This document shows positions 7,120-56,203 of a stretch of 64,000 nt of DNA, piece after piece. Both the position numbers and the translations under genes were made by a program. The number at the start of each line of letters is the position of its first letter. Position 1 is the first letter of the stretch. This DNA comes from Comamonas sp. (GTDB lineage: Bacteria > Pseudomonadota > Gammaproteobacteria > Burkholderiales > Burkholderiaceae_C), in NCBI GenBank assembly GCA_015478895.1, contig JADMKK010000021.1, positions 1-64,000 on the forward strand, read 5' to 3'. The notes beneath the pieces were generated by a model. That model made no database searches. It was given only the letters and a program-made list of their open reading frames with translations, and was not told where the DNA came from.

Positions 7120-8373
7120 GTGCCAAGTTTCCACCCTCTCCACAATGCGGCCTTGCGCCAGCCCGGTTTTTTGTCCTTCTTGAGCGCCCGCATGCTGGGC
7201 GTGTTTGCCCAGCAGATGCAAGCTGTCATCGTGGCTTGGCAGGTGTATGACATCACGCGCGATCCGCTATCACTGGCGTTTGTGGGATTGGCGCAGTTTC
7301 TGCCGATGTTGCTGCTGCTCATTCCAGCAGGTGACTTGGCCGACCGCGTCAGCCGTAAACGCATGTTGGCGGCCAGCTGGAGCGTGGCGGCCGTGTGCTC
7401 GGTGTTGTTACTGTGGCTGAGCACCTTGGGCGAACATGGCGTGGGCGGCATTTATGCAGTGCTGATCTTGTTTGGTTGCAGCCGTGCCTTCACAGGCCCG
7501 GCCATGCAGAGTTTGCTGCCGCAGATCGTGGCGCGTGAACACCTGGCACAGGCCTTGGCGACCAACAGCATGCTCATGCGTACAGCCGCCATTGCAGCCC
7601 CCATGCTCGGCGGCGTGCTGTATGGACTGGGGGGTGGTGAACTGACTTATGCCGTGTGCGCCGTGGCGCTGGCGCTGGGGGTGTTGCTGCTGTGGCGCGT
7701 GCCCGTGCTGTTTGCCGCTCCGCGCCAAGCATTGGAAGGCACGATGTGGCAGCGCGCAGCCGATGGTTTTCGCTTCATTCGCAGCCGTCCGATTGTGCTG
7801 GGCACCATCTCGCTGGACTTGTTTGCCGTGCTGCTGGGCGGCGTGATTGCTTTGCTGCCGGTGTATGCCAAAGAAGTGTTGCATACCGGCCCCGAAGGCC
7901 TGGGCTTGCTGCGTTCATCCATGGCCTGCGGTGAGGTGCTGATGGGCCTGTGGCTCAGCGCCCGCCCGATTCAGCGGCACGTGGGCAAAGTCATGTTTGC
8001 AGCGGTGGCCGTGTTTGGTCTGGCCAATCTGGTGTTTGCGCTGTCGCACTGGTTCTGGTTGTCCATGACCATGCTGCTGGTGGCGGGCGCGGCCGATATG
8101 GTCAGCGTGTACATCCGCTCGGCGCTCGTGCAGTTTTCTACGCCTGACCCTATGCGCGGGCGGGTGAATGCGGTGAACATGCTTTTTATCAGCTCCAGCA
8201 ATGAGCTGGGCGAGTTCCGCGCTGGCACCATGGCGGCGGCTTTGGGCGCAGTCCCAGCAGCGATTGTCGGCAGTGTGTGCACACTGGGTGTGGTGGGACT
8301 GTGGTCGCAATGGTTCAAGCCACTGCGCGATGTGGACCGTCTGGAAGATGCCACACAGCGCGCTGCCGATTAG
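7120..8373 (+). CDS. Major facilitator superfamily transporter (EntS-like exporter group)
   Basis: A 417-residue protein with about twelve transmembrane helices. The MFS signature between helices 2 and 3 is present (GDLADRVSRKRML). The sequence starts PLHNAALRQPGFLSFLSARM and has the general look of the EntS/MFS_3 exporter group; the substrate is unknown. The start is uncertain: in-frame TTG 7075 lies in the xth terminator T-run and is implausible, so GTG 7120 is chosen although no clear ribosome site precedes it. It is not obviously in an operon. Confidence 0.85.
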   Translation: MPSFHPLHNAALRQPGFLSFLSARMLGVFAQQMQAVIVAWQVYDITRDPLSLAFVGLAQFLPMLLLLIPAGDLADRVSRKRMLAASWSVAAVCSVLLLWLSTLGEHGVGGIYAVLILFGCSRAFTGPAMQSLLPQIVAREHLAQALATNSMLMRTAAIAAPMLGGVLYGLGGGELTYAVCAVALALGVLLLWRVPVLFAAPRQALEGTMWQRAADGFRFIRSRPIVLGTISLDLFAVLLGGVIALLPVYAKEVLHTGPEGLGLLRSSMACGEVLMGLWLSARPIQRHVGKVMFAAVAVFGLANLVFALSHWFWLSMTMLLVAGAADMVSVYIRSALVQFSTPDPMRGRVNAVNMLFISSSNELGEFRAGTMAAALGAVPAAIVGSVCTLGVVGLWSQWFKPLRDVDRLEDATQRAAD

Positions 8374-8488
8374 TACAGCGCCACAAAAGTGCTACGAAAA
8401 AGGCCGACAAGACGCATAGTAGAGCCCCTTGGAGCAATCCTTGCTTGCCAAAAATTTCTGCATTTCCTGGAAATAGTGTCTGCTTGCC

Positions 8489-8989
8489 ATGCGCCTTGTG
8501 ATTCGATTTTTTTACCTTGCTGTCGTCAGTTGGAACGTGATGGCCTGTAGCGATTTTCAAGATCGCTTTAAAGGCTATCCCAAGGAAGACACGGTTATTA
8601 ACCTGGAATCGGCCACGTCCAATGAAATTGCCGATGCATTGAGCCGCTTGGCGCACATTGCCGTGGTGGGAGACGACTGGGAGTTCTTGGACCCCGATGA
8701 TCTGTGCACTGTGCATGTGATCGATCAGGCCGCTAACCAGCAATGGCCGCTTCAACTGCGTGGTGCGCAATTTGCGCTGCACCGAGACAGTCACACGCAA
8801 AACTATTACGCCATCATGAAGCATGGCAAGACCCCGGCTTTAGGCCCCGACGGGCAGCCACTGCGACTGTTTGAAACGGCCAGCTACCACGATGTGTTTT
8901 TTGCAGAAGGCTACTTGCAGGCACTGGCAGAAAAATGTGAGTTCCCTCAGTCGCTCAACGCAGCCGCTTCAAGCCCTGCGCCCTCTTGA
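8489..8989 (+). CDS. Putative small lipoprotein
   Basis: A 166-residue protein with a charged-hydrophobic leader (MRLVIRFFYLAVV) and a lipobox ending VMAC at Cys20, so it is probably a lipid-anchored envelope protein. The mature part contains a D-rich stretch (GDDWEFLDPDDLC) and ends in a short Ala/Ser/Pro tail. I do not recognise a family. It lies between the MFS gene and a convergent ddh. Coding appears real because the reading frame, signal and terminator agree, but function is unknown. Confidence 0.7.
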   Translation: MRLVIRFFYLAVVSWNVMACSDFQDRFKGYPKEDTVINLESATSNEIADALSRLAHIAVVGDDWEFLDPDDLCTVHVIDQAANQQWPLQLRGAQFALHRDSHTQNYYAIMKHGKTPALGPDGQPLRLFETASYHDVFFAEGYLQALAEKCEFPQSLNAAASSPAPS

Positions 8990-9054
8990 ATTTCATAGCG
9001 GCCTGCCCTTACTGCATAAGGGGAAACTGCCTTTTTCGACAAAATTATCCAAAC

Positions 9055-9087
9055 AAAAGCCCGCAACTTTTACGCTGCGGGCTTTTG
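9055..9087. terminator. Bidirectional terminator between the lipoprotein gene and ddh
   Basis: AAAAGCCCGCA and TGCGGGCTTTT form a stem around a 10-base loop, with A and T tracts on both sides. It can serve both converging genes. Confidence 0.85.
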
Positions 9088-9112
9088 TCTTTATGCGGCT
9101 GCTGTGAAAGTT

Positions 9113-10111
9113 TTACAGCGCTTCTTTGCGCAGTTGCTCCGCGCTCTTGGCCGACAGCCAGCCGGGGGCCACATCAAACACGGTTTTGGCACCGTACATG
9201 CCCCATTGGTGCATGCGGTGCACCGCGCGGGCATAGGCCACCAGCACGCTGGAGGTGAACTCCGGGTTGCTGTCCAGTTGCAGGCGGTATTCAATCACCT
9301 GCTTGTTCTGGGCCGAGGTGTTGCCGCTGCGGATCACAAAGCCACCGTGGGGCATGGCGCTGTGGTTGGCCTTGAGCTCTTCGGCGCTGATGAAGTTGAC
9401 CGTGGTGTCGTACTCATCAAAGTAGTGGGGCATGGTCACGATGGTGTTGCGCACGGCCTCGGCGCTGGCGCCTTCAGCCAGCACCACATAGCAATGGCGC
9501 TCGTGCTTTTGGCGGGTGCTCAGTTCTGGGCGGGTGCCGCTGCGCACGGCGTCCACGGCGGCTTCCACAGGCAAGGTGTATTGCACACCAGCGGCAACGC
9601 CGGGAATGCGGCGAATGGCATCGGAGTGACCCTGGCTCAGGCCCTTGCCCCAGAAGGTATAGGTTGCGCCATCGGGCAGCAGGGCTTCGCCCATGATGCG
9701 GTTGATGGAGAACATGCCGGGGTCCCAGCCTGCGGAGATCAGCGCCGTGGTGTTGGCCGCTTGGGCGGCGGCGTCGACCGCTGCAAAGTGCTCGGGCACG
9801 CGGGCGTGGGTATCAAAGCTGTCCACCATGCAGAACTTGGCCGCCAGCGCGGGCGACTGCACGGGCAGATCATCCTTGGAGCCACCGCACAGCACCAGCA
9901 CATCAATGCGGTCGGTGTGACTTTCCAGATCGGCCATCGAGAACACCGGCGTGCCTTCAAACAGGGGCTGGAGCTGGCTGGGGTCGCGGCGGGTGTAAAT
10001 GCCAGCCACCACCATGTCAGGGTTCTTGGCTACAGCGTTTTCTACGCCACGGCCCAAATTACCGTAGCCCACCACGCCAATGCGGATGGGGTTTGTGGGG
10101 GTCTTTTCCAT
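9113..10111 (-). CDS. ddh: meso-Diaminopimelate D-dehydrogenase
   Basis: A 332-residue NADPH-dependent enzyme that interconverts L-2-amino-6-oxopimelate (from tetrahydrodipicolinate) and meso-diaminopimelate in one step, a shortcut in lysine and cell-wall synthesis. The Rossmann motif GVVGYGNLGRG is at residues 12-22, and the family's LCGGSKDDLP, VDSFDTHA and SAGWDPGMFSINR blocks are all present. Length is normal. It stands apart from dap genes. The 5' region contains a near-perfect 28-base hairpin, which could regulate it. The enzyme is patchily distributed among bacteria, so lateral acquisition is possible but not shown. Confidence 0.93.
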   Translation of the reverse strand: MEKTPTNPIRIGVVGYGNLGRGVENAVAKNPDMVVAGIYTRRDPSQLQPLFEGTPVFSMADLESHTDRIDVLVLCGGSKDDLPVQSPALAAKFCMVDSFDTHARVPEHFAAVDAAAQAANTTALISAGWDPGMFSINRIMGEALLPDGATYTFWGKGLSQGHSDAIRRIPGVAAGVQYTLPVEAAVDAVRSGTRPELSTRQKHERHCYVVLAEGASAEAVRNTIVTMPHYFDEYDTTVNFISAEELKANHSAMPHGGFVIRSGNTSAQNKQVIEYRLQLDSNPEFTSSVLVAYARAVHRMHQWGMYGAKTVFDVAPGWLSAKSAEQLRKEAL

Positions 10112-17896: not shown

Positions 17897-17953
17897 AAAA
17901 AATTTTTCATAGCTTTATGCCGTTGTTGCACAAGGGCTTGAAGGCTATTTGAC
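17897..17953. repeat. Interspersed intergenic repeat, copy A
   Basis: Contains the core 'ATAGCT...TTGCACAAGGGCTTGAA', shared with the copy at 18915-18975. It overlaps the 3' end of the DUF938 gene. Repeats of this style are, from memory, common in Comamonadaceae genomes. Confidence 0.5.
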
Positions 17954-18583
17954 TGATATTTTTTGAAACACCAAACAGCGATTATTGGCAGGCATCTCAT
18001 GGTCGCCCACCAGTTGCAATCCATGCTGCGCGGCCAGCGCATGCACCGCTTCAAAATCCCGGATCCCACTGTCTGCATCGCGCGCCTTGAGCCAGGCGTC
18101 AAAGTTACGGTTGCTCTCGCTGGTGAACGTGCCGCCATAGTTAAACGGCCCATACACCGCAAACACCGCGCCTTGTGCCAAATGCAGGCCCAGCATTTCG
18201 AACAGCCGCTGCACCAAAGCCCAGTTCACGATGTGCAAAGTGTTGCTGGTAAAGACGGCATCGAAAGCGCCTTCTGCCGTCTCCGGCCAGTTGCCGCTGG
18301 ATAAATCCAGCGCCACGGGCAAACGCAGATTGGGCGATGGAAACTCCGCAAGCCAGGCCGCAATGCCATCGTGCAGCGCAGGCAGCTCACTGGTCTGCCA
18401 GACCAGATGCGGCAAGCGCGGCGCAAAGTACACGCTGTGCTGGCCAGTGCCGGAGCCAATCTCCAGAACATGCGTGCTGTGGGCAAAGGCGTGCTGCAGC
18501 ACATCAAAAATTGGGGCTTGGTTGTTTTCACAAGCAGGGGCAAAGGGGCGCGTCATGTGCAGCATCATGGCACAGCGATTCAT
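17945..18583 (-). CDS. DUF938-family SAM-dependent methyltransferase
   Basis: A 212-residue Rossmann-type methyltransferase of the DUF938 group. Motif I is VLEIGSGTGQHSVYFA, the N-terminal block FAPACENNQAPIFDVL is family-typical, and FNYGGTFTSESNRNFDAWLK is the characteristic late motif. The substrate is unknown. The start could instead be Met10 (MTRPFAP, at 18556), which fits the family's short N-terminus. The 3' end runs into an interspersed repeat. It is the last gene before the integron. Confidence 0.88.
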   Translation of the reverse strand: MNRCAMMLHMTRPFAPACENNQAPIFDVLQHAFAHSTHVLEIGSGTGQHSVYFAPRLPHLVWQTSELPALHDGIAAWLAEFPSPNLRLPVALDLSSGNWPETAEGAFDAVFTSNTLHIVNWALVQRLFEMLGLHLAQGAVFAVYGPFNYGGTFTSESNRNFDAWLKARDADSGIRDFEAVHALAAQHGLQLVGDHEMPANNRCLVFQKISVK

Positions 18584-18771
18584 TGCTTATTTTTGATAGC
18601 TGATTGCCTATACCTCTAATGGCCTAAATGGCTTTTTGATGCATTTTTATGGCATGCACCACAGCCAGTTTTCCGCCACCACCAAGTCACTCAAAACCAC
18701 GCGCAGCACCAAACACCCAGCGATTCAGCGCTTGAATATTCATGGGTTTGAATGAGCGGGAATAAAAGGTA

Positions 18772-18832
18772 GGCTAACGAACGAAAGTAAGCCGCCCGCC
18801 GAAGGCGGGTCGGCTTGACTGCACAGTTAGAC
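18772..18832 (-). other. Integron attC site 2 (end of cassette 2)
   Basis: On the minus strand the site runs from GTCTAAC, a perfect RYYYAAC core, to GTTAGCC. Between them AAGCCG and CGGCTT arms flank a GC-rich stem (ACCCGCC, TTC, GGCGGGC). This is the classic imperfect palindrome recognised by IntI as folded single-stranded DNA. Confidence 0.85.
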
Positions 18833-19064
18833 CCAGAAGCCAAAACGGGAAACCCCAGATTGACGACGAGCGAAAACTGCGAAAAAGCAGTGCGCCACGG
18901 AGGCGACGCACTGCTTGAAAAATGATAGCTACTAGCGCAAGCTGCACAAGGGCTAGAATCCAAAAAGGCTTGAAATAGCGCAAAACTCCAAGGCGAAGCC
19001 CGGCACAAGGCAAAAAACCCAACGGATAACCGCTTGAGAAGGTAAACGCCGGTGAATAAAACAT
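18774..19064 (-). CDS. Doubtful cassette-2 reading frame
   Basis: A 96-codon frame from ATG 19064, 33 bases past the cassette boundary and reading into attC (ending PAFGGRLTFVR), as many cassette frames do. Against it, the centre (LALVQLALVAIIFQ) is translated from a copy of the interspersed repeat, and AVRRLRGALLF is translated from a terminator-like hairpin. There is no recognisable domain. I list it because it is the only frame filling the cassette, but a noncoding cassette seems at least as likely. Confidence 0.3.
   Translation of the reverse strand: MFYSPAFTFSSGYPLGFLPCAGLRLGVLRYFKPFWILALVQLALVAIIFQAVRRLRGALLFRSFRSSSIWGFPFWLLGLTVQSSRPAFGGRLTFVR
18882..18914 (-). terminator. Terminator-like hairpin inside cassette 2
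   Basis: On the minus strand GCAGTGCG pairs with CGCACTGC around a 12-base loop and is followed by five T. This is a Rho-independent terminator form in the direction of cassette transcription. Confidence 0.6.
18915..18975. repeat. Interspersed intergenic repeat, copy C, inside cassette 2
   Basis: Shares 'ATAGCT', 'GCTGCACAAGGGCT' and flanking A/T tracts with copy A at 17897. A weaker relative containing 'TTTTTGATAGCTG' lies at about 18590-18646. Confidence 0.5.
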
Positions 19065-19090
19065 GGGCTAAATAATGCGGGTTTCTAAGC

Positions 19091-19150
19091 GGCTAACGAA
19101 AAAGCTAAGCCGACCGCCGAAGGCTGGTCGGCTTGAGCGCCGGGTTAGTA
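19091..19150 (-). other. Integron attC site 1 (end of cassette 1)
   Basis: On the minus strand TACTAAC begins the site and GTTAGCC ends it. AAGCCGACC and GGTCGGCTT form the inner arms around a GC-rich tip. It directly follows the 19175-19756 gene and is closely similar to attC2, as expected of sites in one chromosomal integron. Confidence 0.85.
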
Positions 19151-19174
19151 ATTAATTCTCCTGAGTCTATTAAT

Positions 19175-19756
19175 TTAGACATATTCTGCAGGAGGCAAAT
19201 CTCCAGACACCATCTGCGGTTTAAAAACAAATACTGACTCATACTGTTTTTTCCTAAGAATTTTTCTGTGTATGGAAAAAACCCAATTAAGGAGTGATGA
19301 GGAAGAATTATATTTGGCAACAATTTTCAACTCTTCAGTTTTAATACCCATAGGACTTCCTCCTTCGTCCGAGTATTTATTTAGATCATGACTATCAAAT
19401 CTGAATAAATGAATTAATTGACCTGGTGCCATTTGTGGTATTTCAACATCGAATATCTCACCAAGTGATTCTCTTGGGTTGTTTCGTCGCAATTCCCCGA
19501 AAATCTCAAATTCAATATTTTCAGCCCTAGAGCCACCGATATTAACAACATAAAATTGAATGAAAATATCTTGAAACCTGGTTTTTAATATTTTTGTTTT
19601 TGATCCATCAATGCCTAGAGGTAGCTCGTATTCATACTCGGGACCAAACCTATTTCTAACTTCATAATAAAATTCCAACATAGGTTTTTTTTGGTTTGAT
19701 ACAACTTGCAAACCAACTCTAATTATTCCTGCTGCTGTAGACCCTGAAATTTCCAT
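19175..19756 (-). CDS. Integron cassette 1 protein of unknown function
   Basis: A 193-residue protein without a recognised domain. It has mixed strand-like stretches (FIQFYVVNIGGSRAENIEFEIFG) and a basic C-terminal part (IHRKILRKKQYES), with no signal peptide or clear membrane helix. It is much more AT-rich than the flanking genes, as expected of acquired cassette DNA. The ATG lies 10 bases after the GTTAGAA core at 19772-19766, the normal cassette layout, and the gene ends shortly before attC1. It would be expressed leftward from a promoter in attI or intI. Function cannot be inferred. Confidence 0.8.
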   Translation of the reverse strand: MEISGSTAAGIIRVGLQVVSNQKKPMLEFYYEVRNRFGPEYEYELPLGIDGSKTKILKTRFQDIFIQFYVVNIGGSRAENIEFEIFGELRRNNPRESLGEIFDVEIPQMAPGQLIHLFRFDSHDLNKYSDEGGSPMGIKTEELKIVAKYNSSSSLLNWVFSIHRKILRKKQYESVFVFKPQMVSGDLPPAEYV

Positions 19757-19765
19757 ATCTCTTTT

Positions 19766-19887
19766 TTCTAACTAGATTTAGGTGAAAGGGATCGTAGTGA
19801 TGCCGACCATCTAATGCAATCACGTTAGTCAGGTTCTATAGGGAAACTGCCAATAGTTAACATTTAGCGCGGTCTAAAAATTGGCGG
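19766..19887 (-). other. attI: Integron attI region with cassette insertion point
   Basis: This 122-base stretch between intI and cassette 1 ends in a GTTAGAA core (19772-19766, minus strand), the junction with the first cassette. Further GTTA-like cores lie at about 19824 and 19856 on the plus strand and could be accessory integrase sites. The cassette promoter is expected here or within intI; no clear -35/-10 pair could be chosen. Confidence 0.65.
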
Positions 19888-20880
19888 ATGGATGCCTCCC
19901 CAACTCCGCCCAAATTGCTCACCCGCCTGCGGGAGCATTTACGTACGCGGCACTACAGCATTCGCACGGAAGAGGCCTATGCCGACTGGGCCAAGCGCTT
20001 TATTCTTTTTCACCACAAGCGCCACCCGCAAGACATGGGCGCGGCAGAGGTGGAGGCTTTTTTGACCCACCTAGCGGTAGATCGGCAGGTGTCTGCATCC
20101 ACGCAAAACCAGGCCAAAGCAGCGTTGCTGTATCTGTATAAGCAGGTGCTGCAGATAGAGCTACCTTGGCTCGATGAAGTAGTGCAAGCCAAGACACCGC
20201 AGCGCTTACCTGTGGTGCTCACCCCCAGCGAGGTGCGCGAGCTGCTACAGCACATGGAGGGTACCCCCAGCCTAATTTGCCACTTGCTTTATGGCACGGG
20301 CATGCGGGTACTGGAAGGGCTGCGCCTGCGCGTAAAAGACATTGAGTTTGAGCGGCGTGAGATTGTGGTGCGTGAAGGCAAAGGAAACAAAGACCGCGTG
20401 ACGGTGCTGCCTGAGAACCTGATTACGCCGCTCAAAGCCCAGCTGCAAAAGGTGCGTGCATTGCACGAAAAGGATGTGCTGGCTGGCTTTGGACGTGTGT
20501 ACTTGCCGCACGCGCTGGCGGTGAAATATCCGGAGGCTGACCGCAGCTGGCCGTGGCAGTGGGTGTTTCCCTCCCCGGTGCGTTCGCAAGATCCACGCCC
20601 AGATGCCCGCACGGGCGAGTTGTTGGAGCGCAGGCACCATGTGCTGCCTACTTCGGTGCAGCGCGCCGTGCGCGATGCGGCCCACCGCGCTGCCATTGTC
20701 AAACCGGTCAGCCCCCACGTGCTGCGCCACTCTTTTGCGACGCATTTGTTGCAAGCGGGATATGACATTCGAACGGTACAAGAGCTGCTGGGCCATGCTG
20801 ATGTCAGCACCACCATGATTTACACCCACGTGATGAACAAAGGCGGGCGCGGCATTTTGAGCCCGCTGGATGCGCTGTAA
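19888..20880 (+). CDS. intI: Integron integrase (IntI), chromosomal type
   Basis: A 330-residue tyrosine recombinase that inserts and excises gene cassettes between attI and attC. Catalytic residues are Arg140 (GTGMRVLEGLRLR), His277 and Arg280 (SPHVLRHSFATHLL), His303 (LLGHADVS) and Tyr312 (MIYTHV); the last four match IntI1 numbering as I recall it. The IntI-specific insertion is present at about 195-230 (LPHALAVKYPEADRSWPWQW). The gene is intact and points away from the cassettes, the normal arrangement. No clear LexA box was seen upstream. A terminator follows. Identification is firm. Confidence 0.96.
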   Translation: MDASPTPPKLLTRLREHLRTRHYSIRTEEAYADWAKRFILFHHKRHPQDMGAAEVEAFLTHLAVDRQVSASTQNQAKAALLYLYKQVLQIELPWLDEVVQAKTPQRLPVVLTPSEVRELLQHMEGTPSLICHLLYGTGMRVLEGLRLRVKDIEFERREIVVREGKGNKDRVTVLPENLITPLKAQLQKVRALHEKDVLAGFGRVYLPHALAVKYPEADRSWPWQWVFPSPVRSQDPRPDARTGELLERRHHVLPTSVQRAVRDAAHRAAIVKPVSPHVLRHSFATHLLQAGYDIRTVQELLGHADVSTTMIYTHVMNKGGRGILSPLDAL

Positions 20881-20926
20881 AAGCGTGCAACCGCAAAACT
20901 GCCAAACCATAGAACGCAGCCACAAA

Positions 20927-20950
20927 AAAACCGCCCGAAGGCGGTTTTGC
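20927..20950. terminator. Bidirectional terminator between intI and fumA
   Basis: AAAACCGCC and GGCGGTTTT pair around the tetraloop CGAA, with A and T tracts on either side. It serves the convergent intI and class I fumarase genes. Confidence 0.85.
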
Positions 20951-20977: not shown

Positions 20978-22531
20978 TTACGCGCCCGCTACGCTGATGC
21001 CCTTGAACTCACCGGTCGCAATCTTTTCCTTCCAGACCGCTGGGCCAGTGATGTGGGCGCTGGTGCCGCCCGAGTCCACGGCCACAGTCACGGGCATGTC
21101 GACCACGTCAAATTCGTAAATGGCTTCCATGCCCAGGTCTTCAAAGCCCACCACCTTGGCGTGCTTGATGGCCTTGGAGACCAGGTAGGCAGCGCCGCCC
21201 ACGGCCATCAGGTAGGCGCTTTGGTGCTTTTTGATGGCTTCGATGGCAACAGGGCCGCGCTCGGACTTGCCGATCATGGAGATCAAACCCGTTTCGGCCA
21301 GCATCATCTCGGTGAACTTGTCCATGCGGGTGGCGGTAGTGGGGCCGGCGGGGCCAACGGCTTCGTCACGCACAGGATCGACCGGGCCGACGTAGTAAAT
21401 CACGCGGTTGGTGAAGTCCACGGGCAGCTTTTCGCCCTTGGCCAGCATGTCTTGAATGCGCTTGTGGGCGGCGTCACGGCCTGTCAGCATCTTGCCATTG
21501 AGCAAGATGGTGTCGCCGGGCTTCCAGCTGGCGACTTCTTCCTTGGTCAGGGTGTTGAGATCGACACGCTTGGACTTGTTGTAGTCGGGTGCCCAGTCGA
21601 TCTTGGGCCAGGTATCCAGCGATGGTGGGTCCAGGTACACGGGGCCGCTGCCGTCCATCACAAAGTGGGCGTGGCGGGTGGCGGCGCAGTTGGGGATCAT
21701 GGCCACGGGCTTGCTGGCCGCGTGCGTGGGGTACATGTTGATCTTGACGTCCAGCACCGTGGTCAGGCCGCCCAGGCCTTGGGCGCCAATGCCCAAGGCA
21801 TTGATTTTTTCGAACAGCTCCAGGCGCAGCTTTTCCACGTCATCCAGCTCGGCACCGCTGGCAGCTTTTTGCTGCAGCTCGTACATGTTCAAGTCTTCCA
21901 TCAGGCTTTCTTTGGCCAGCAAGACGGCTTTTTCTGCCGTGCCACCAATGCCGATGCCGATCATGCCGGGTGGGCACCAGCCTGCGCCCATTTCTGGGAT
22001 GGTCTTCAAAACCCAGTCCACGATGGAATCGCTGGGGTTCATCATGATCATCTTGGACTTGTTCTCAGAGCCGCCGCCCTTGGCCGCCACGGTCACTTCC
22101 ACGGTGTTGCCGGGCACTATCTGCACGTTGATGACGGCAGGCGTGTTGTCCTTGGTGTTCTTGCGCTTGAAGTGCGGATCAGCCACCACGGAGGCGCGCA
22201 GCGTGTTGTCGGGGTGGTTATAGCCACGGCGCACGCCTTCGTTGATGGCGTCTTCCAGGCCCATGGTGAAGCCGTCCCACTTCACATCCATGCCTACCTT
22301 CAGAAACACGTTGACGATGCCGGTGTCCTGGCAGATGGGGCGCTGGCCGGTGGCGCTCATCTTGGAGTTGGTCAGGATTTGCGCCATCGCATCCTTGGCC
22401 GCAGGGCTTTGCTCACGCTCATAGGCGCGGGCCAGGTGCTGGATGAAATCCGGCGTGTGGTAGTAGCTGATGTACTGGAGGGCACCTGCGACGGAGTCGA
22501 TCAGGTCCTGCTGACGGATGGAGGTGGTCAT
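20978..22531 (-). CDS. fumA: Fumarate hydratase class I (iron-sulfur)
   Basis: A 517-residue [4Fe-4S] fumarase converting fumarate to malate in the TCA cycle. Cluster-binding cysteines fit the conserved motifs RPICQDTG (Cys67), GAGWCPPGM and IPNCAATRH. The C-terminal domain has the VGPAGPTTATRMD and DSGGTSAHITG signatures. Length matches the single-chain class I form (about 505-550). It is divergent from fumC across a 264-base region with a Fur-like box. This enzyme needs iron and is oxygen-labile, so it is the form expected when iron is plentiful. Confidence 0.95.
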   Translation of the reverse strand: MTTSIRQQDLIDSVAGALQYISYYHTPDFIQHLARAYEREQSPAAKDAMAQILTNSKMSATGQRPICQDTGIVNVFLKVGMDVKWDGFTMGLEDAINEGVRRGYNHPDNTLRASVVADPHFKRKNTKDNTPAVINVQIVPGNTVEVTVAAKGGGSENKSKMIMMNPSDSIVDWVLKTIPEMGAGWCPPGMIGIGIGGTAEKAVLLAKESLMEDLNMYELQQKAASGAELDDVEKLRLELFEKINALGIGAQGLGGLTTVLDVKINMYPTHAASKPVAMIPNCAATRHAHFVMDGSGPVYLDPPSLDTWPKIDWAPDYNKSKRVDLNTLTKEEVASWKPGDTILLNGKMLTGRDAAHKRIQDMLAKGEKLPVDFTNRVIYYVGPVDPVRDEAVGPAGPTTATRMDKFTEMMLAETGLISMIGKSERGPVAIEAIKKHQSAYLMAVGGAAYLVSKAIKHAKVVGFEDLGMEAIYEFDVVDMPVTVAVDSGGTSAHITGPAVWKEKIATGEFKGISVAGA

Positions 22532-51008: not shown

Positions 51009-51093
<85 letters not shown>

Positions 51094-51235
51094 AGTTTAA
51101 CGACAACTGCTTGCAGTCATCGCAAAACAAAAAGTTCATGAATTACCAAATGAACGGTTTATTTAAAAGTAAACTACTCTTTTAAGCGAAATATGAGATT
51201 TACCAATCAACCTTAACAGGTTTTGGTAAGTATCA

Positions 51236-51320
<85 letters not shown>

Positions 51321-51403
51321 AAAATTTGAGAAGCTTGCTTAGCAAGCTTCAACCAAAAGTACATTGCGAGTGCTACCACACTCTTTAAATACAATGCTCT
51401 TTT

Positions 51404-51488
<85 letters not shown>

Positions 51489-51569
51489 AAATTTGTTCGG
51501 CATATTGTTTATGCCACGAAATTAGATTGCTGAGTGCTACCTCGCTCCTTGAAAAAGCAATGTAACTTT

Positions 51570-51654
<85 letters not shown>

Positions 51655-55916: not shown

Positions 55917-56015
55917 ACAACGTATTTCCACAGCGCAAGCAATTGCTATGGCCTTGTTGCCTTGCAATGCTTGCGCTTCGTTGTTTCTGGGGCCTGCGCG
56001 CTGGGCTACACTTGC

Positions 56016-56203
56016 AGGGTACGCAACTGGCGATAGGTGCTCCGGATTTCTCCGGCCCAGCACTGACGTGGAATCGCTGCAAAAGGCCTTTAAATCGCCT
56101 TACGCCAACCACCGGGGAGCGTACCGCCCAGACTGATCGGGCGTCTTAGCCGTTCGCCTGGGCAGCCCTTGTTTACAAGGGAATTCAAGTTCACAGGACT
56201 GCC
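56016..56203 (+). promoter_or_regulatory. ZTP (ZMP/pfl) riboswitch controlling glyA
   Basis: The pfl-motif core is complete: GGGTACGCAACTGGCGA (56017-56033) with AGGTG, then CCACCGGGGAGCGTACC (56109-56125), a short hairpin, and CGCCTGGGCA (56155-56164), the ZTP-binding 3' motif. GGTACGC and GCGTACC pair. A loop insert of about 70 bases separates the two halves, longer than in the textbook examples. Downstream, GGCAG (56161-56165) can pair with CTGCC (56199-56203), which abuts the AGGA ribosome site of glyA, so control may act on translation. ZTP signals low 10-formyl-folate, and GlyA makes one-carbon units, so the pairing is logical. Confidence 0.9.

Follow-up and report, generated by a model that had tools for sequence, protein, structure and literature searches.

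A chromosomal integron beside fumA in a Comamonas species, with an eroded array and a DUF1010/gcuF cassette that appears to be kept translatable

The window analysed here is a stretch of 64,000 nucleotides from Comamonas sp. (assembly GCA_015478895.1, contig JADMKK010000021.1, positions 1 to 64,000), whose host is a species in the genus of Comamonas denitrificans. It carries an integron that is sedentary, chromosomal and old. The integron integrase (IntI) is conserved, but of the array only two cassettes and a truncated third are left. The integron is a new, eroded member of the chromosomal integrons already known, and the unexpected part is its second cassette. This cassette belongs to the DUF1010/gcuF family, whose reading frame stays open beyond chance while its amino acids are nearly unconstrained. 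Overall, we read the locus as an old sedentary integron beside the fumarase gene fumA, in which the array eroded and the DUF1010/gcuF cassette was kept translatable, and give this reading a probability of about 75%.

Cassette 2 (18778..19096, minus strand, 319 bp) was placed in the family by Pfam and by its matches to plasmid copies. Its segment 18781..18975 (minus strand) matches DUF1010 with 108.9 bits against a cut-off of 25, and it has the family's length of about 319 bp with a short attC at its end. Of 190 distinct nhmmer rows, 111 were attC-only or partial; the family is described from the others, which comprise 49 full-length copies, 17 middle ones and 13 short ones. An open reading frame (ORF) starting with ATG extends to the attC in 45 of the 49 full-length copies, and 30 of these 45 stop at the TAG of the R' core. 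No in-frame stop was seen among the 43 of the 49 copies that were compared codon by codon. Between nearest neighbours, the DUF1010 frame has gained 0 stops against 23.8 expected, and the other five frames 16-24 against 24-32, under an expectation that presumes random placement of changes and that the control frames themselves undershoot by 9-41%. In three of the 43 copies, bases were inserted outside the columns of the reference; a repeat with 40 indel-free copies gave the same outcome (0 against 23.0 expected, the other frames 15-23 against 22-31). The frame anchor is present in 12 of the 13 short copies, all 12 of which keep the frame to the attC, 11 with an upstream ATG. Among the middle copies, seven hold the anchor and six of these are open to the attC; of the ten that lack it, eight can be read from their 5' end without a stop in the R' TAG frame (seven with an early ATG) and two cannot.

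The amino acids are under far less constraint. The three codon positions of DUF1010 differ alike (0.285, 0.276 and 0.278; 41 rows), unlike those of IntI, which are skewed to the third position (0.489), and the observed-to-expected ratio with matched mutations is 1.02 for synonymous and 1.00 for missense changes. Together with the stop avoidance, the even codon positions indicate that the frame is kept and the peptide hardly so. The frame could also belong to a genuine, fast-evolving small protein, perhaps a diversifying one, and be open since the protein is needed. The end-to-end frame in 45 of 49 copies and its retention in most shorter variants are what such a protein would leave. The ratio of nonsynonymous to synonymous differences (pN/pS) in close pairs points the same way, being 0.61 in the DUF1010 frame and 0.69-0.88 in the control frames, so that weak amino-acid selection exists. 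In mid-range pairs it is 0.76 as compared to 0.76-0.87, and the ratio of the corresponding substitution rates (dN/dS) rises from 0.58 through 0.71 to 0.82 from close to distant pairs. We nevertheless consider such a protein rather unlikely, in view of the even codon positions and matched-mutation ratios and of three copies, the window's among them, that have left the DUF1010 frame and are yet open to the R' TAG.

The window copy lacks an ATG ORF in the DUF1010 frame because of a -1 indel, yet its own ATG ORF (18774..19064, minus strand, 96 codons) is open up to the TAG of the R' core. Given the DUF1010 homology and the frame-shifting indel, it is a member of the family by descent whose frame has changed. 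Its attC is 61 nt long, one above most copies, and five full-length copies share this length. In two of them (L055_1527 and L151) the DUF1010 frame overruns the R' TAG. The remaining three (the window copy, L180_8014 and L150 from genome G439) carry differing -1 indels, stop at the R' TAG and encode an altered peptide. Indels in the reading frame occur in 6 of the 44 other full-length copies. This suggests, from a small number of copies, that the -1 indels in the 61-nt attC group bring the ATG frame into the phase of the R' TAG. Viral contigs yielded no further copy with a 61-nt attC, and the nine genomes of the genus of G439 yielded only the one already known.

A hairpin repeat that is dispersed through the genome, with the pattern AGCT(4)GCNCTT(7)AAGNGCTAGA, has one of its copies in the middle of cassette 2 (18919..18958). 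The pattern has 56 matches in the window genome, counted on both strands with at least one site counted twice, and 18 in a second genome of the genus (G047). It was absent from 367 other class-sample genomes, and a reversed control pattern gave no match. Within a Comamonadaceae sample it occurs in 23 of 150 genomes, namely in 10 of 12 that have the cassette and in 13 of 138 that do not (Fisher p 5e-8, taking the 150 genomes as a subset of the 399 searched for the cassette, as judged from their handles); where repeat counts are low, some of the repeats may sit inside cassettes. With this hairpin in its middle, the cassette core might act as a structured RNA or single-stranded DNA element, its open frames being a by-product of base composition. 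Without attC, the core has a consensus folding energy of -72.4, as compared to -45.3 (standard deviation 3.5) in 30 column shuffles, which fits that idea. However, RNAalifold found two-sided changes in only 3 of 29 pairs of alignment A2, with a covariation term of -1.46, and a structural element leaves unexplained why stop gains are zero in the DUF1010 frame alone. We regard it as quite improbable. A description of DUF1010 as a non-coding element, for which the missing codon-position bias had spoken, was likewise dropped as too strong given the stop-gain controls and the frame-keeping shorter variants.

The integron around this cassette has the anatomy that the original prediction, made from the letters of the window alone, had described: an intact IntI with its catalytic residues and IntI-specific insertion, an attI-like region and two attC sites in the proper order and orientation. 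The gene intI (19888..20880, plus strand, 330 aa) matches the integron integrase profile TIGR02249 with 469.1 bits against a cut-off of 265. Residues 10-329 align to VchIntIA (2a3v; E 2e-82), including the stretch ahead of HxxR that marks IntI proteins. By this alignment, R140, K165, H277, R280, H303 and Y312 are what we take to be the catalytic residues. Between the window and C. denitrificans, the IntI codon positions 1, 2 and 3 differ by 0.083, 0.015 and 0.416, and such low first- and second-position and high third-position differences indicate strong purifying selection. The figures over all pairs are 0.235, 0.157 and 0.489, which include one mis-stranded row (L137) that is ignored in pairwise statements. 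IntI may be catalytically active. It is the one strong integron-integrase match in the genome; three others are partial, with E from 9e-8 to 5e-17.

Both attC sites were recovered on the array strand next to intI by a covariance model (R2) trained on 16 attC sites of relatives and leaving out those of the window. The site of cassette 1 (19088..19153, minus strand) scores 64.8 bits (E 1.2e-14) and that of cassette 2 (18769..18835, minus strand) 76.5 bits (E 9e-18); on the plus strand, the positions 18769-18835 and 19088-19153 reach only 18.2 and 13.9 bits. As single-stranded DNA of the minus strand, both sites fold more stably than shuffles, by 4.1 and 3.3 standard deviations. They are alike, with 84% identity across 43 nt without gaps, for which the earlier wording "near-identical" was somewhat strong. 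The attI region (19772..19887, minus strand) was defined by aligning 11 IntI upstream regions, the window included. Nine share their sequence up to AGTTAG and diverge beyond it, so that the crossover falls at 19771/19772, within the core GTTAG; of the other two, that of G047 cannot be aligned and the second is cut short at AGT. Judged on five or more bases, the first cassettes at nine loci have eight different starts. Rfam at its gathering threshold gave no match at the integron.

Cassette 1 (19097..19771, minus strand, 675 bp), delimited by its GTT core sites, is inserted at attI. Its ORF of 193 aa (19175..19756, minus strand) had no match in Pfam or NCBIfam and none in plasmids or viral contigs, and genomes were not searched for it; its single-sequence fold is poor, with a predicted local distance difference test (pLDDT) score of 42.7. 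Beyond cassette 2, the stretch 18694..18778 (minus strand; nhmmer E 1.1e-6) corresponds to positions 1-102 of the model of the cassette-2 family and is up to 90% identical over 42 nt to other arrays. It is the 5' end of a DUF1010/gcuF-type cassette and has no attC. This match to the 5' part of the family indicates that a third cassette was formerly present, which the earlier account of a two-cassette array had overlooked, as it had the family of cassette 2 and the proximity of fumA. A search for further attC in the 3.2-Mb genome, using an earlier model that included the window sites and scoring 150 of 1291 first-look candidates, found none.

The integron lies at a locus whose history can be followed within the genus. 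The class I fumarase gene fumA (20978..22531, minus strand), identified by Pfam and synteny, stands tail to tail with intI at a distance of about 100 bp in the window genome (G000) and in three others (G047, G039 and G030), all four with an intact IntI. After fumA comes a hairpin (20921..20948), just past which the integron starts; blastn matched it at 23 of 29 loci from relatives (L202-L230). The gene on the far side of the integron (17945..18583, minus strand) belongs to DUF938 according to Pfam and the relatives' loci, and it follows fumA also in L229 (G012) and, partly covered, in L202 (G022), where IntI is absent. Of the 53 genomes in the genus, 51 gave a FumA match, and loci with 1.5-kb flanks were compared for the best 30 of 55 matches, own included; G010 has two equal-scoring FumA matches, at C1:37830 and C1:502236. 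Three more genomes show decayed forms of the integron at fumA: a frameshifted IntI in G013, an 86-aa IntI stump with attI in G028 (L205) and two attC-like sites without IntI in G011 (L213). In G012 (L229), a glyoxalase-family gene and DUF938 come after fumA, and the integron is absent. The locus beside fumA varies between species of the genus, and the integron holds an inherited position there, adjacent to fumA in four genomes and decayed in three.

Such decay raises the question whether the integron is dead, with an inactive IntI and two leftover cassettes. The truncated third cassette, the two attC sites as the only ones detected in the genome, the frameshift in cassette 2 and the losses in other species of the genus would all fit that view. 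However, IntI is intact and strongly purified, attI is conserved, and first cassettes differ across loci. We find a dead integron unlikely. The choice originally offered, an active integrase or an eroded array, is therefore not exclusive: selection on IntI and the differing first cassettes speak for the first, the shrunken array for the second, and both hold in part.

Close relatives of this integron are already known from chromosomes of the Comamonadaceae, in C. denitrificans, Simplicispira, Lampropedia, Giesbergeria and C. badia (L053-L056 and L058). Their IntI are 82-96% identical to that of the window, their attC type is the same, and so is the attI core where it can be read; DUF1010 cassettes are present in L053, L055 and L058. 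They differ in array size, with 8, 10, 14, 4 and 12 array-strand attC sites in L053, L054, L055, L056 and L058 as compared to two in the window, and no fumA was found beside their IntI. In a tree of 93 integrase rows, the window and C. denitrificans fall within a clade of ten Comamonadaceae rows (support 100/100). The class 1 integrases of L179 and of several genomes in this genus group in a different clade, and the node joining both groups has a support of 86/19. The window IntI shares the integrase family and the attC logic with class 1 integrons, but its identity to the L179 class 1 integrase is 51% over 290 aa. The earlier suggestion that this integron is a relative of the source of clinical class 1 integrons thus gains no specific support; the link to clinical integrons runs via cassette 2, not via the integrase. 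Integrases that group with class 1 in the tree were seen in G047 (L136 and L145), G040, G049, G020 and G048, with 52-56% identity to the window IntI, and G047 has two types of integrase, a native one and one of class 1 type.

Cassette 2 has matches in 1837 of 72,556 plasmid records, and in 1787 of these the match spans 80% or more of the query. The best match has 60-80% identity in 1835 of them, mostly 75% among the matches listed. Plasmid CP034254 has the gene order integrase, dfrA12, DUF1010, aadA2, qacEdelta1 and sul1, which we take to be the dfrA12-gcuF-aadA2 array. The class 1 gcuF cassettes, in dfrA12-gcuF-aadA2 and gcuF1-blaOXA-28, share with cassette 2 the length of 319 bp, an ORF running into the attC and the attC type, at about 75% nucleotide identity over 91%. 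Unlike these, the window copy lies in a chromosome, and it has a 61-nt attC and the -1 indel that shifts its ATG ORF. A copy on plasmid LC623924 (L180) is 89.4% identical to cassette 2. Between blaIMP-1 and ere(A), at 7429-9295, this IncP plasmid has an uninterrupted series of six DUF1010-type cassettes, of which five have full length and one is shorter.

Among genomes, cassette matches were found in 29 of 399 Comamonadaceae genomes (own included), in 14 of 141 genera, and in three of the 29 (G306, G075 and G247) the match is only as long as an attC. None was found in 366 class-sample genomes outside Comamonadaceae. A sample of the order, with 349 genomes of which about 339 belong to other families, gave two matches in other families, one of which (G1003) covers the attC only. 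The L179 copy is nested in the Comamonadaceae diversity, its nearest relative being that of G187 (88.9%). The accessible text of PMC3375312 already notes a close relative of gcuF1 (87%) in Acidovorax sp. JS42. A model of Comamonadaceae chromosomal attC sites scores the gcuF attC of L179 with 78.6 bits, that of aadA2 with 71.3 and that of dfrA12 with 19.1. These scores come from the Comamonadaceae model alone and cannot be weighed against the placement of aadA2 under Xanthomonadales in the portion of Ghaly et al. 2021 (PMC8352920) available. Taken together, these comparisons point to a family that is probably at home in Comamonadaceae integrons and may have supplied mobile class 1 integrons from there.

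How might an open frame be of use without its peptide? IntI would recombine folded attC sites with attI, so that cassettes would enter at 19771/19772 and be read away from attI on the minus strand. The DUF1010 frame covers nearly the whole of its cassette, often stopping at the attC core TAG, and ribosomes crossing it would spare downstream cassettes from polarity. That translation through the cassette avoids polarity in this way is the likeliest reason for the open frame and has, in our judgement, a little less than an even chance. A broader proposal is that DUF1010/gcuF serves as a translatable spacer, in which translation and not the identity of the peptide is selected, and which sustains ribosomes and transcription to downstream cassettes; we put it forward tentatively and hold it to be somewhat doubtful. 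In the accessible part of Hocquet et al. 2012 (PMC3375312), gcuF1 (319 bp) lies upstream of blaOXA-28 and gives a fusion protein, with altered transcription, translation and secretion of the enzyme, and the gcuF1 cassette is excised by IntI1 upon SOS induction. The fusion shows that translation can leave such a cassette and continue in the gene that follows. A related case, to judge from the available text of PMC11014356, is that of the gene-less cassettes of Vibrio superintegrons, whose value, like that of DUF1010, may come from something other than an encoded protein; DUF1010, however, keeps an open frame. The literature search, in the parts of the sources that it reached, found no description of the stop avoidance or of the fumA integron locus.

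Several observations weigh against the reading of an old, fixed integron with a cassette kept translatable. Concerning the locus, the closest IntI, that of C. denitrificans with 96% identity, is not adjacent to fumA. FumA of this species (G009; IntI locus L053) is only 85% identical to that of the window, and with the different locus this means that the histories of integrase and host disagree. In G047, the IntI adjoins fumA, yet its upstream region fails to align as attI. Counts of LexA boxes and Pc promoters in attI did not exceed chance, with no site between 19757 and 19888. As for the family's home, one genome of another family in the same order (G1158) holds most of the cassette at 74% identity. 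Concerning the frame, the copies are related and the statistics carry no phylogenetic correction, 4 of the 49 full-length copies fail to stay open from ATG to attC, and the close-pair pN/pS and the assumption behind the expected stop gains count here as well. Finally, in the accessible text of PMC3375312, gcuF1 lowers the output of the next cassette instead of aiding it.

Elsewhere in the window, four consecutive tRNA-Leu (CAG) genes lie at 51009-51654, and a ZMP/ZTP riboswitch (43.5 bits) lies at 56013-56170.

Through cassette 2, a "hypothetical protein" that is very common in mobile integrons is linked to one bacterial family. If the reading given here is true, some cassettes would be retained for their translatability and not for their product, which would bear on how integron arrays stay expressed.

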